Of a DNA stretch of 38,307 bases, positions 10,222 to 38,307 are shown one piece after another (the stretch's first letter is position 1; every line of letters begins with the position of its first letter). The notes beneath the pieces were generated by a model. It saw only the letters and a program-made list of their open reading frames with translations, did not search any database and had not been told where the DNA came from. Origin of the DNA: an uncultured Dehalococcoidia bacterium (GTDB taxonomy: Bacteria; Chloroflexota; Dehalococcoidia; Lucifugimonadales; Lucifugimonadaceae); the NCBI GenBank assembly GCA_913048295.1, contig CAJWWK010000018.1, forward strand, positions 1-38,307. The letters run 5' to 3'. The translations under genes were made by a program, and so were the position numbers.

Positions 10222-11553
10222 GTGAAAATCAAACACATCGAGACTGTCCGCGTAAGCGACCCGGCCGACGTTATATGGGTCAGGATCCATACGGATACCG
10301 GTCTTATTGGTCTGGGTGAAACCTGGTACGCGTCGAAAACGGTCGAATCGGCGGTTCACGACCACTTCGCGCCGCTGATTGTCGGGCGCGACCCGTTTGC
10401 GATAGAGCGCCACTGGCTGAACATGTTCAGGTTGTCGGACCACGCCGGATATGGTGGTGCCGAGCTGAGGGCAATCTCGGCAATCGACATGGCCCTCTGG
10501 GACATCAAGGGACAGGCAGCAGGCGTACCGGTCTACGAGCTCCTGGGGGGCGCGGTCCGCAAGAAAATCCGCGTATACGCCACCGGAGCACCTTTCGTGG
10601 GTGCCGGTGATCTGGCCAGAGAGTTGATCGACGACGGCATGATCGCAATGAAGATGGGGCCGACCATCCCGGTCGCGACGCCGTCGGAAGGGCAGTACCT
10701 GTCTTCGAAAGACCTCGACCTTGCACTGCAACCGTTCAGAGACGTGCGTGACGCGGTGGGCGACGGCATCAAAATCGCCAACGATGGGCATGGAAAATGG
10801 GCCCTGCCAGTTGCGATCCAGATCGCCAAGGCGATGGAACCGCTCGACATCATGTGGCAGGAAGACCTGATGCCGCTGCTGAACCCGGACGCCCTAAGGC
10901 AGCTGCAAGATGCCACAAGCACGCCCGTATGCATCTCCGAGCGGCTACTCACCAGATGGCAGTTCCGTGAATTTATCGAGAACGGATCTGCACAGATCGT
11001 AATGCCCGATCTGATCTGGACAGGGGGAATTAGCGAAACTCATCGCATCGCGATCATGGCATCGGCGCACCAGGTGCCGGTCGCACCGCACGACGCCACG
11101 GGGCCGGTCAACATCTTCGCCTGCGCACACATCTGCATGAACTCGCCAAACGCAATGATCATGGAGCACGTACGTCCCTACCTGTACGGCTGGTACGGCG
11201 ATTTCGTCGACCCTCTTCCTCCCATCGAACACGGATGGCTCAGTGCTCCCCAGAATCCCGGTATAGGCACCCGCCTACGGCCCGAAGTACTCGAACGCTC
11301 CGACTGCGAGACGCGGGTGACCGATGAATCCGTGGCTATTCCCGGCATGAATGACGAAGGCTGGACGGGCCGCGAATACTTTTCCGATGGAATGTGGACG
11401 GAAATGGAAGAGATAATGAAATTCCGTTCACTCGGTTATTCGGATGCAGGACGGCTTTCGCCCGGCGAGGGCGACGCTCCAACCGGCGGCCCGGGCGGCG
11501 GCATCGCAACCTGGTACAAAGACGGTGAACCGGATAAAGGAGGTGACGAATGA
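10222..11553 (+). CDS. Enolase-superfamily dehydratase, galactonate/mannonate-dehydratase-like (paralogue 1)
   Basis: The 443-residue protein has the enolase N-terminal capping domain and a TIM barrel. Every residue of the GalD-type active site is in place: metal ligands Asp188, Glu214 and Glu240; acid/base His190 in NDGHGKW; His290-Asp291 in VAPHD; and Glu315 in MIMEH. The spacing is five residues off E. coli DgoD (D183, H185, E209, E235, H285, E310). It should dehydrate a sugar acid to a 2-keto-3-deoxy acid, but the substrate is not readable. The start is GTG. It overlaps paralogue 2 by four bases (ATGA). The C-terminus has a long Gly/Pro-rich tail absent from paralogue 2. Confidence 0.88.
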   Translation: MKIKHIETVRVSDPADVIWVRIHTDTGLIGLGETWYASKTVESAVHDHFAPLIVGRDPFAIERHWLNMFRLSDHAGYGGAELRAISAIDMALWDIKGQAAGVPVYELLGGAVRKKIRVYATGAPFVGAGDLARELIDDGMIAMKMGPTIPVATPSEGQYLSSKDLDLALQPFRDVRDAVGDGIKIANDGHGKWALPVAIQIAKAMEPLDIMWQEDLMPLLNPDALRQLQDATSTPVCISERLLTRWQFREFIENGSAQIVMPDLIWTGGISETHRIAIMASAHQVPVAPHDATGPVNIFACAHICMNSPNAMIMEHVRPYLYGWYGDFVDPLPPIEHGWLSAPQNPGIGTRLRPEVLERSDCETRVTDESVAIPGMNDEGWTGREYFSDGMWTEMEEIMKFRSLGYSDAGRLSPGEGDAPTGGPGGGIATWYKDGEPDKGGDE

Positions 11554-12809
11554 TCATCTCCAAAATCGAAACGATTCGGGTCGGCCAGTTCCCAGACTTG
11601 ATCTTTGTACAGGTCCACACCGACACTGGCCTTATCGGTCTGGGTGAGACCTGGTACGCTGCCTCGACCGTCGAATCGGCCATCCACGATCACTTTGGAC
11701 CGCTTCTGATCGGGCGTGATCCGGCCGAGATAGAGCGCCACTGGCAGACGATGTTCCGCCTTTCCGATCACGCCGGGTACGGCGGAGCCGAACTCAGAGC
11801 AATATCGGCCCTCGACGTGGCCCTCTGGGACATCAAGGGTCAGACGCTACAGATGCCGATTTTTGAGATTATTGGGGGCGGCACGCGGCACCGGATCAGG
11901 GTCTACAACACGCTCGGCGTCTATGGCGATATCACCGACGGGTACGACGTGTGGACCGATCCGGTGGGAGTGGCAAAACGGCTGCTTGACGAGGGCATCA
12001 CCGGAATGAAGATGTCGCCAACCGATTTCATTGCGAGGGAGTCCGACGGGCAGCTTCTGTTCAAAGACGACCTCGAGTGGGCGCTCCGCCCACTCCGCGA
12101 GATCCGGGACAAGTTAGGCATGGATATCGAAGTTGCAAACGATGCCCACGGCAAGTGGAACCTTCCTAACGCGATTAAGATCGTCCGAGAGATGGAACCC
12201 CTGCGCCCGATGTGGCACGAGGAGCTCATTTCGCCGCTGAACGAAGAAGCGCATGCAAGGCTGCAGTCAGCCACCTCGACTCCGATCGCGGCGGCAGAGC
12301 GCCTGATGACCCGGTACCAGCACCGCCGTTTTATCGAATCGTCAGCAGCTCGAATTACGATGCCCGACCTCACATGGACGGGCGGAATCTCGGAAGTAAT
12401 GAAAATCGCGATCCTCGCATCGGTTCACCAGATGCCGATCGCCCCACACGATTGCGTTGGTCCCGTAAACATGCTCGCCTGCGCACACATTGCGATGGCC
12501 ACGCCAAACGTGATGATCATGGAATACAACCGGGCGATGCACCTCGGCTGGTACCGCGACTTTATCGAGCCGGATTTCGTGATAGAAAGCGGATTCCTGA
12601 TGGCCCCAACCGAGCCCGGCCTGGGAACTCACTTGAAAGCATCAGTTCGTGAACGTACCGACGCGACGGTCCGGACCAGCGACGAAAGAGCCGAGTCGTG
12701 GCTGATGTCGCGGCAGCGCTACACCTATCCTCCACCCGAAATTCAAGACGACTTTATTGAAAGCACCGAGCGCCGAAAAGCCGGATCAGAAGCCGTTTAT
12801 TACGACTGA
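11550..12809 (+). CDS. Enolase-superfamily dehydratase, galactonate/mannonate-dehydratase-like (paralogue 2)
   Basis: This 419-residue tandem paralogue shares near-identical stretches with the preceding gene (for example TDTGLIGLGETWYA and AGYGGAELRAISA). The active site is complete: Asp198, His200 (NDAHGKW), Glu224, Glu250, His300-Asp301 (IAPHD) and Glu325. Compared with paralogue 1 it has a 10-residue insertion around 122-135 in the barrel, a region that often shapes specificity, and Ala in place of Ser before the third metal Glu. A strong Shine-Dalgarno AAAGGAGGTGA precedes the ATG. The ATGA overlap with paralogue 1 shows cotranslation. The two products may act on different epimers or form a mixed oligomer; this is inference. 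Confidence 0.9.
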   Translation: MIISKIETIRVGQFPDLIFVQVHTDTGLIGLGETWYAASTVESAIHDHFGPLLIGRDPAEIERHWQTMFRLSDHAGYGGAELRAISALDVALWDIKGQTLQMPIFEIIGGGTRHRIRVYNTLGVYGDITDGYDVWTDPVGVAKRLLDEGITGMKMSPTDFIARESDGQLLFKDDLEWALRPLREIRDKLGMDIEVANDAHGKWNLPNAIKIVREMEPLRPMWHEELISPLNEEAHARLQSATSTPIAAAERLMTRYQHRRFIESSAARITMPDLTWTGGISEVMKIAILASVHQMPIAPHDCVGPVNMLACAHIAMATPNVMIMEYNRAMHLGWYRDFIEPDFVIESGFLMAPTEPGLGTHLKASVRERTDATVRTSDERAESWLMSRQRYTYPPPEIQDDFIESTERRKAGSEAVYYD

Positions 12810-19208: not shown

Positions 19209-19266
19209 CTGAACGGCCTTCAATTCAACGTTATCCAGCGAACACATGAAAGCAGTATCACACCCC

Positions 19267-19902
19267 ATGGGAACAGAAACGCCAATCAAGATTGACATCT
19301 TTATCGACTACACCTGACCATGGGTAAGACAGGCTGGCATGTGGCTGGCCAGGGTGAAGGAAGAACTCGGCGACGGCCTGGAGATTAACTGGCGCAGTTT
19401 CGCGCTCGAACAGATCAACTCCAAAGAAGGCGATGAATGGAAAGCCTGGGAGCAGGGTGCCGATTACACAAGCCGGGGCCTGTGGGCTCTGCGTGGTGGG
19501 ATTGCGGCACGTGCCCAGGGAACGGACGCACACAATGACTACATGGAGAAAATCCTCCACATTAAGCACGTCGAACGGGAAGACATCAGAACACGCGAGG
19601 CCGTGATCGCGGTCGCCGAAGCAGCTGAAATCGACGTCGGTGAATTTACCAGTGTCCTGGATGATCCCGCAACGCTACAGCAAATCGGAATCGATCACGA
19701 ATCTGCCCTTGAGCGCGGCGTATTTGGAACACCAACCTTCGTTTTCGAAGACGGCACTTCCGCATTCTTGAAGATGTTCACACCCCCCGGAGACGAAGCG
19801 ATGGGTGCATTCAACGATTTCATGGGAATTGCGAGTAGAAGAAAATATTTCGGCGAACTGAAGCGTCCGCAGCCGCCCTGGCCACGAGATGCAGGAAATT
19901 AA
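19267..19902 (+). CDS. DsbA-family thioredoxin-fold oxidoreductase, probable selenoprotein (in-frame TGA at 19315-19317)
   Basis: Reading from ATG 19267 (or in-frame ATG 19246) gives an N-terminus IKIDIFIDYT, then TGA, then PWVRQAGMWLARVKEELG. In DsbA/FrnE/HCCA-isomerase-like proteins this site reads D-Y-T-Cys-P-W, so the TGA replaces exactly the nucleophilic cysteine (residue 17). Coding continues without interruption for 194 more codons with the cis-proline loop VFGTPTFVF and the C-terminal FGELKRPQPPWP. The protein has no cysteine at all, so selenocysteine would be its only redox residue. A 7-bp stem-loop follows the TGA. The internal ATG at 19339 would make a protein lacking beta-1 and the active site. 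A nonsense mutation is the alternative. The stop is six bases before rnc. Confidence 0.72.
19332..19350 (+). promoter_or_regulatory. Candidate bacterial SECIS element
   Basis: GGCTGGC (19332-19338) pairs with GCTGGCC (19344-19350) through seven pairs, two of them G-U, closing the loop ATGTG (19339-19343). The loop begins 21 bases after the TGA, within the distance expected for bacterial SECIS hairpins. The expected G in the first two loop positions is absent; it comes third. An alternative 5-bp fold CTGGC/GCCAG is possible. Confidence 0.45.
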
Positions 19903-19908
19903 CTGCAA

Positions 19909-20664
19909 TTGCCGATAACTCCGTTAGGACCTGAGCAACTCGATTCGGCGGAAGCCGCACTGCACGTTAAGTTCCGCGACAAGGACGTGCTCGCCCTCGC
20001 ACTCACCCATCAGTCGTACCTGAACGAGCACCTAGCTACACCGAAGTCCAGTTCGAATTCGGGCTCTAACGAGCGCCTTGAGTTTCTAGGCGATTCAATC
20101 GTGGGAATGGTCATCGCCGATCAAATGTACGCGGGAGCGCCCGAGCTGCCCGAAGGTGACCTGACGATCCGCCATTCCCACGTTGTGCGAAAGGAAACGC
20201 TCACGCTGGCCGCCCGGGCAATCGGCCTGGGCCAGTGGCTGGTCATGGGAAAAGGCGAAGCGAACGCCGGTGGGGCAGACCGGTCTTCGAACCTCGCCGA
20301 TGCCTTTGAGGCCGTCGTCGGGGCGGTTTATGTCGACCGTGGCTATCGACAGGCGAGGTCGTTCGTCAATCGGTGGCTTGGACATCACGTCGTGGACGCA
20401 CTCAGCTCAGAAACACGCAAGGACCCCAAGTCGCTGTTGCAGGAATATTTGCACGCTAACCGGATAGAGTCACCAAAATATCGCCTTGTATCTGAGTCCG
20501 GTCCGCCGAACGACAACGTATTCAAAATGGAAGTGGTTATCGGCTCGACACCGGTAGCGTCCGGTTCGGGTCCAAGAAAACTCGACGCCGAGCGCGAAGC
20601 TGCCCGAAAAGCACTTAACCTGCTAGAACCGAAAACAGAGCCCATTTCACCAACGGAAAACTGA
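19909..20664 (+). CDS. rnc: Ribonuclease III
   Basis: RNase III cleaves double-stranded RNA in rRNA precursors and mRNAs. The 251-residue protein has the RNase III signature NERLEFLGDS (54-63) with Glu55 and Asp62, the second acidic cluster in NLADAFEAVVGAVYVD, and a C-terminal dsRNA-binding domain (about 165-238: DPKSLLQEYLHAN through AEREAARKALNLL). The start is TTG at 19909 with AGGA at 19893; no ATG exists upstream in frame before the preceding gene. It lies six bases after the DsbA-like stop and 10 bases before ftsY, so all three are likely one operon. rnc-ftsY adjacency is common in bacteria. Confidence 0.94.
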   Translation: MPITPLGPEQLDSAEAALHVKFRDKDVLALALTHQSYLNEHLATPKSSSNSGSNERLEFLGDSIVGMVIADQMYAGAPELPEGDLTIRHSHVVRKETLTLAARAIGLGQWLVMGKGEANAGGADRSSNLADAFEAVVGAVYVDRGYRQARSFVNRWLGHHVVDALSSETRKDPKSLLQEYLHANRIESPKYRLVSESGPPNDNVFKMEVVIGSTPVASGSGPRKLDAEREAARKALNLLEPKTEPISPTEN

Positions 20665-30305: not shown

Positions 30306-31586
30306 TTACCCACTCGAATCAGACACCATATCGGGATCTGCACCGCTCCATGAATCGCGCATCCGGACCTCTCGTTCGCCATGGGCTCCAACCACCTCAA
30401 ATACCGGTGACTCATGGCCTCCCCAGTGGAAGTGCTGGCCCGGCTCATCGGTCACCTCGACGGTCAGGTCTGAACGATCAAATACGTCTCGCCGCAAACG
30501 CGTACCCAGCCCGGGTCCCTGCGGTGCAAGTAGAAATCCGTCAACGACCTGAATATCGGTCTCTAAGACTTTTTGGTACCAGCCGCCCTTGCCGTAGAAA
30601 GCCCGGCAGGTCTCCATCAGAAATACATTCGGTGCGTTCATCGAAATGTGTGCACACGCGAACACGTTCACGGGGCCGGTCATATCGTGCGGTGCCACCG
30701 GTCTTTGCTCGGCTTCAGCCATCGTGCAGATCTTCTTGGTCTCGGTGATCCCCCCGGTCCAGATCAAGTCGGGCATCACCACCTCGGCAGCTCCCGCCCT
30801 GAGATATTCCCGAAACTGGTACTTGGTGATGAGCCGCTCTGAGACGCACACTGGCGCTTCGATCTCGTCGGCCAGCCGCAGGTGGCTCTCAACGTTGGTC
30901 GGCTGGATTAGCTCTTCCTGCCACATCATATCGAGGTGATCCATCGCCTTGCCGATCTTGATCGCTGAATTCAGATTCCACCTTCCGTGGCCATCATTTG
31001 CGACCTCGATCCGGTCGCCGACTGCCGCCCGAATGTCTTCAACCGGTTTGATAAGAAGTTTCAGGTCTTCCCTCGAAATGTGGGTCCCGCGGTTGATATC
31101 GGCGAACTGGTCAGTAAATGCCCACTTCATCGCGGTAATCCCCTCATCGAGCAGGCTCTTCGCAAGCGTTCCGGCATCTAGTACCGCCATCTCCATGTCG
31201 CGGTTCGCACCGTACTGACCGGTCGTGTTGTACGTGCGAACGCGGTCACGGCAGGCTCCACCGAGCAGGTTGTAGATCGGCTGCCCCGCGACCTGGCCGG
31301 AGATATCCCAGAGAGCGATATCGATCGCCGAGATCGCCCGGGCTTCGGCGCCGGCATAGCCAAATGCGTTCGCCATGTCGAACATGTCGCGCCAGTGGCG
31401 CTCGATCGCGAGCGGATCTTTCCCGATAAGCATCGGGGCGAACATCTCGTGCACACAACCGGCCACGGCCCGGGGTCCGAAAAAAGTCTCGCCCAGCCCC
31501 ACATGCCCCGAATCAGTCTTGACCTGCACCCAGATAACCGCCGGGAACTCAGCAAGGTGAACCGTTTCGATTGACGTAATCTTCAA
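30306..31586 (-). CDS. Enolase-superfamily dehydratase, galactonate/mannonate-dehydratase-like (paralogue 3)
   Basis: A 426-residue third family member with the full active set: Asp198, His200 (NDGHGRW), Glu224, Glu250, His300-Asp301 (VAPHD) and Glu325. It is more divergent from paralogues 1 and 2 than they are from each other; the specificity loop differs (FFGPRAVAGCVHEMF instead of WYASKTVESAVHDHF near residue 35-49) and the barrel lysine region is MKWAFTD. It probably dehydrates a different sugar acid. The start is TTG at 31584-31586 with GAGG upstream. It is divergent from an RraA-like aldolase gene, a pairing consistent with a dehydrate-then-cleave route for a keto-acid. Downstream on the same strand lies the frameshifted SRPBCC gene. 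Confidence 0.88.
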   Translation of the reverse strand: MKITSIETVHLAEFPAVIWVQVKTDSGHVGLGETFFGPRAVAGCVHEMFAPMLIGKDPLAIERHWRDMFDMANAFGYAGAEARAISAIDIALWDISGQVAGQPIYNLLGGACRDRVRTYNTTGQYGANRDMEMAVLDAGTLAKSLLDEGITAMKWAFTDQFADINRGTHISREDLKLLIKPVEDIRAAVGDRIEVANDGHGRWNLNSAIKIGKAMDHLDMMWQEELIQPTNVESHLRLADEIEAPVCVSERLITKYQFREYLRAGAAEVVMPDLIWTGGITETKKICTMAEAEQRPVAPHDMTGPVNVFACAHISMNAPNVFLMETCRAFYGKGGWYQKVLETDIQVVDGFLLAPQGPGLGTRLRRDVFDRSDLTVEVTDEPGQHFHWGGHESPVFEVVGAHGEREVRMRDSWSGADPDMVSDSSG

Positions 31587-38240: not shown

Positions 38241-38307
38241 ATGACAGGGGAGTGGATGGGTCCCGGTGGGCCTCACGGACTTCAACTCCGCTGGCGTGCG
38301 TCCTTCG
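38241..38307 (+). CDS. Possible 5' end of a gene cut by the window edge
   Basis: From ATG 38241 a frame reads MTGEWMGPGGPHGLQLRWR and is still open at the window end. An ATG at 38256 in the same frame, preceded by AGGGGAG, has the better ribosome site. The 22 codons are too few to name a family. Confidence 0.35.
   Translation, partial: MTGEWMGPGGPHGLQLRWRASF

Follow-up and report, generated by a model that had tools for sequence, protein, structure and literature searches.

A marine SAR202-group bacterium almost certainly encodes a selenium-dependent DsbA-like protein: judging from sequence, SelB, aided by a hairpin just downstream, would deliver Sec-tRNA(UCA) to an in-frame UGA, making residue 17 selenocysteine (Sec). 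The window, meaning the whole stretch of 38,307 nucleotides that was analysed, is an entire contig (C18) of a 2.43-Mb genome (G000) that comprises 110 contigs and is ~89% complete. No published description of selenoproteins in SAR202 was found in our literature search, and the predicted selenium-dependent enzyme is conserved across much of this clade. The finished genome of a cultured strain, Candidatus Lucifugimonas marina JH1073, holds the same TGA-containing gene together with selA, selB, selD and tRNA-Sec; thus, this strain allows a direct test both of the prediction and of what a single-selenol DsbA-like protein does.

Table 1. Positions in the window of the predicted selenoprotein gene and associated features
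Feature	Position	Strand	Remarks
Predicted selenoprotein gene (DsbA-like, PF01323, thioredoxin fold)	19267..19902	+	211 aa with Sec17
TGA codon read as Sec, residue 17, motif D-Y-T-U-P-W-V	19315..19317	+	Supported by homologue codons
SECIS-like hairpin, GGCTGGC-ATGTG-GCTGGCC	19332..19350	+	7-bp stem, 5-nt loop; loop starts 21 nt past the UGA
rnc (RNase III)	19909..20664	+	6 bases past the selenoprotein stop; named by reading
tRNA-Sec (selC), first 60 of 94 bases	38248..38307	+	Gene cut by the contig end; other part at G000:C36:1-89

An in-frame TGA at the active site of a DsbA-like gene

The frame reads MGTETPIKIDIFIDYT-TGA-PWVRQAG..., contains this single internal TGA and continues to a terminal TAA. 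Its best-supported start is the ATG given in Table 1, and a second in-frame ATG lies at 19246. The encoded protein has no cysteine, leaving Sec17 as the sole Cys-like residue. The PF01323 DSBA domain extends across the TGA (residues 9-163, 5.5e-17, 62.6 bits against a gathering score of 25.6), while Thioredoxin_5 matches the read-through protein more weakly. In the NCBIfam profile search no model exceeded its cut-off; the Rcas_1661 family (NF041057, DsbG-like selenoprotein) scored 22.8 bits against a curated cut-off of 190, so the protein is not a member. In the absence of an NCBIfam model, standard callers would truncate the SAR202 protein: gene calling with table 11 starts at ATG 19339 and yields an ORF of 187 aa from which the active site is lost. 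A preliminary description, made from the letters of this DNA, had read the frame in the same way, with an otherwise complete fold, no further cysteine and a caller start that misses the active site, and all of these points are borne out.

Codon-position substitution rates indicate coding constraint both 5' and 3' of the TGA, in line with the coding quality noted earlier on either side. For the nine codons 5' of the TGA, genus-level rates at codon positions 1, 2 and 3 are 0.104, 0.015 and 0.437, which identifies the frame preceding the TGA as coding. The weak termination context that had also been invoked is a different matter: a C does follow the TGA, but it is the first base of an invariant Pro codon and therefore provides no independent evidence, and the argument was dropped.

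Conservation of the codon was assessed in two sets of homologues that overlap in species. Of 60 related genomes searched, 43 contained a match; 41 active sites were readable, with TGA in 36 and Cys in five (G023, G033, G024, G034 and G044). A scan of GTDB genomes listed 80 of 180 relatives, all of them Chloroflexota and often labelled Dehalococcoidia or SAR202; the cultured JH1073 is one of these relatives, at 79% identity. Among the 79 listed matches with a readable active site, the codon is TGA in 70, TGC in six and TGT in three, and neither TAA, TAG nor any residue besides Sec or Cys occurs. The recurrence of TGA at the identical codon in 36/41 and, among the matches listed, 70/79 excludes chance, as the preliminary description had anticipated in assigning the TGA to the catalytic cysteine and judging a random nonsense mutation unlikely. 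It had named unrelated residues or scattered stops at this site, or a genome without Sec machinery, as observations that would speak against a selenoprotein. Neither was seen: the aligned homologues have only TGA or Cys, and the genome contains selA, selB and selD as well as a tRNA-Sec gene, which is divided between two contigs.

A tree of 88 proteins, built with the active site masked, requires three changes of the Sec/Cys label, compared with a mean of 10.6 after shuffling. Since most branches carry Sec, this tree, which is rooted at its midpoint only, reads best as an ancestral Sec that would have switched to Cys three times. Such repeated switches, some accompanied by loss of the whole Sec machinery, offer a clean natural comparison. 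Additionally, two genomes of the same family (G020 and G025) have Sec machinery and high completeness without any match to the DsbA-like selenoprotein, so that the protein is dispensable in some lineages.

The gene had been described as part of an operon with rnc and ftsY. The link to rnc is real, rnc being the next gene in 76/80 listed loci, while ftsY lies farther downstream, within the fetched flank in 46 of the 80 listed loci. A divergent upstream gene resembling a CCA-adding enzyme is likewise found in 46 of the 80. The rnc linkage may be mere ancestral gene order. An apparent fusion to another domain in G312 (a 670-aa open frame) was rejected as a spurious upstream open frame in GC-rich DNA. 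Elsewhere in the window, three paralogous genes, by reading similar to the mandelate-racemase/enolase superfamily (10222-11553, 11550-12809 and 30306-31586), agree with the expansion of enzyme paralogues reported in SAR202.

Protein fold and proposed chemistry

When 32 homologues are aligned, no variation is seen at D14, residue 17, P18, G154 or P156, or in the C-terminal K-x-P-Q-P-P-W-P; more distant members, from other orders of the class, retain the active site and have partly lost the C-terminal tail. The predicted structure (mean pLDDT 92.5) adopts a DsbA-type thioredoxin fold, in which Sec17 follows the first strand, where helix 1 begins, and the invariant Pro156 occupies an F-G-T/V-P loop that corresponds to the customary cis-Pro loop. 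The PF01323 match, the solitary Sec17 and the homologue codons together support the earlier proposal of a one-selenocysteine thioredoxin-fold enzyme.

Position +3 from Sec17 is Val in 79/79 homologues among the matches listed, and other cysteines are sporadic. With Val at +3 and no resolving Cys, the protein would be a mono-selenol enzyme whose nucleophile lacks an internal resolving partner. The selenolate of Sec17 would then act as a one-nucleophile catalyst and, given the missing resolving Cys, the Se-bound intermediate would probably be freed by an external thiol, for instance thioredoxin or a small thiol. By reading, the N-terminus has no apparent signal peptide, and the protein likely serves in redox reactions of thiols or peroxides in the cytosol rather than in disulfide formation in exported proteins. 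We consider this redox reaction and its partner reasonably likely, with appreciable room for doubt.

The principal competing view of function keeps the selenoprotein and assigns it a non-redox activity, either isomerisation or group transfer, of the kind carried out by 2-hydroxychromene-2-carboxylate isomerase or kappa-class glutathione transferase. The structural model matches both folds (Z 15.0 and 16.8, respectively), and these enzymes likewise have no resolving Cys, as is the case for the Sec17 protein. However, both use Ser at the equivalent site, whereas the restriction to Sec or Cys observed here argues for a strong nucleophile, and the single-Cys protein DR2335 is far closer in structure (Z 23.0). 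A non-redox function is therefore unlikely, and a redox role for Sec17 is preferred.

Selenocysteine machinery and the SECIS-like hairpin

The genome's own selA (508 bits, C56), selB (323 bits, C22) and selD (362 bits, C10) all pass curated cut-offs, and selD carries an in-frame TGA of its own. The predicted tRNA-Sec gene is also present, split over contigs C18 and C36, because the last 61 bases of the window are 100% identical to the tRNA-Sec 5' ends of three relatives (G014, G009 and G013) and C36 opens with the remainder, a 5'-cut match to RF01852 (50.8 bits) from which only 5 bases of the tRNA are absent. The two contigs overlap by ~55 bases within the gene and are probably neighbours in the genome; in relatives, tRNA-Sec follows the selenoprotein gene at a distance of ~18-19 kb, which is the place where the window ends. 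The window yielded no tRNA with ARAGORN, since tRNA-Sec is incomplete at its end. A 54-bit RF01852 match on C11 of the same genome was rejected as an ordinary tRNA (RF00005). In G013, too, two contigs (C17 and C3) are broken at tRNA-Sec.

Among the 36 TGA-form genomes, selB is above its cut-off in all 36 and selA in 35, the exception (G026, 86% complete) having no selA above cut-off. Three of the five Cys-form genomes (G023, G033 and G024) are without both selA and selB, and the other two (G034 and G044) have kept the Sec machinery.

The hairpin following the UGA has a calculated energy of -11.2 kcal/mol and satisfies the stem, loop size, distance and energy of a published bacterial SECIS model, which specifies a stem of 4-16 bp, a loop of 3-9 nt, a position 16-37 nt after the UGA and an energy of <= -7.5 kcal/mol (PMC13188914). 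Mean local energy is -10.2 kcal/mol in the 36 TGA homologues versus -2.2 in the five Cys homologues, from which the hairpin is mostly gone, and shuffling of synonymous codons gives mean z values of -1.88 and -0.29, respectively; for single sequences the z is modest (-1.26 for the window hairpin). In the genus and part of the family, alignment columns 18-24 pair with 30-36, and in the outer clades 18-24 pair with 29-35. In both clades the covariation score is higher than in any of 500 shuffles, although kinship alone can push sequences above shuffles without any structure; the weight therefore rests on the comparison with the Cys homologues and on a slide control, in which shifting the pairing by 1-3 bases destroys the score. 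As a side observation, a Cys (TGC) homologue in a Sec-capable lineage (G034; L028, L153, L158) has kept a hairpin of 6 bp downstream of the codon, which may be a SECIS relic.

The model's loop rule, a G within the first two positions, does not hold for the majority of the genus (AUGUG, AUUUG), the window's AUGUG included, but does for most homologues of the outer clades (GUGU) and for members with AGUUG. Some SECIS elements depart from the published bacterial model according to that source itself (PMC13188914). Comparison with the hairpin after the selD UGA did not bring out a shared loop rule. Furthermore, SelB of the window's genus (G000:C22:889-2025 in the own genome) in most cases matches TIGR00475 only over about the first 345-363 positions, and SelB of most other lineages matches to position 580. 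The C-terminal, SECIS-binding part of SelB in this genus may have diverged along with the unusual hairpin loop.

These observations bear on two further explanations. Genome-wide decoding of TGA as another amino acid such as Trp, or near-cognate read-through without selenium, would account for a frame that is open on either side of the codon; it is nevertheless highly improbable, as TGA also serves as an ordinary stop that ends 9/29 window genes, Cys is the sole alternative residue among the matches listed, the full Sec machinery co-occurs and the hairpin tracks the TGA forms. That the TGA genuinely ends translation, or was introduced by faulty sequencing, leaving a pseudogene or a protein begun at the internal ATG as the standard caller has it, is scarcely credible, given that it recurs in many species and assemblies, the finished genome of the cultured strain included, that the other nine of the 79 listed homologues have Cys and never TAA or TAG, and that the codons before it evolve as coding.

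Comparison with known selenoproteins and structures

The nearest solved structure is DR2335 of Deinococcus radiodurans (7dk9, 7dka), with a profile match of 1.2e-21 and a structural match at Z 23.0 (rmsd 2.4, 194 aligned). It has a single conserved Cys, and its experimental function was not reported (PMC8945050). In contrast to the SAR202 protein, DR2335 has Cys instead of Sec, shares ~22% identity, and the match stops at RPxP, the full KRPQPPWP tail being absent. The DsbA-family oxidoreductases Rv2466c (Z 17.4) and FrnE (Z ~15) have the DSBA fold in common, but they possess CxxC-type active sites, CP[WF]C in FrnE (PMC8945050), and are more distant in both fold and sequence.

Two DsbA-like selenoproteins have been catalogued. 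Form 1 (UxxC), known from Sargasso Sea data (PMC1088965, COG2761), likewise uses Sec as the N-terminal nucleophile; however, it has a resolving Cys where the present family has Val, so that the protein is not form 1. Proteins of the form-1 kind, of a U-P-W-C DsbA-like type with an in-frame TGA, were also observed in other Dehalococcoidia orders (L205, L206, L207, L208 and L209). Form 2, listed in a 2026 review, is defined by PF01323 and the motif DxxUP (MDP6049977.1; PMC13188914 Table 1) and was earlier given as a crotonase/enoyl-CoA hydratase family protein (KAA1296466.1; PMC9312934); the reference given for form 2, Peng 2016 (PMC5029168), contains no description of the family in its main text. 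In a comparison of domain and motif, the SAR202 protein shares PF01323, its DYTUP (D14-Y-T-U17-P18) fits DxxUP, and neither is of the UxxC type. No hairpin, gene neighbourhood or taxonomic description of form 2 was found in our literature search.

By domain and motif, the SAR202 type has thus probably already been catalogued as form 2. It is doubtful, if conceivable, that it instead represents a separate, SAR202-ancestral and rnc-linked mono-selenol DsbA-like family, marked by U-P-[WFY]-V and, in a core clade, by the invariant C-terminal tail, with a Lucifugimonas SECIS loop that is off the published model and may have co-evolved with the diverged SelB C-terminus. What the present analysis adds to the catalogued form is its spread in SAR202, the linkage to rnc, the Sec/Cys switches with loss of the machinery, the hairpin, and a cultured strain in which the prediction can be tested.
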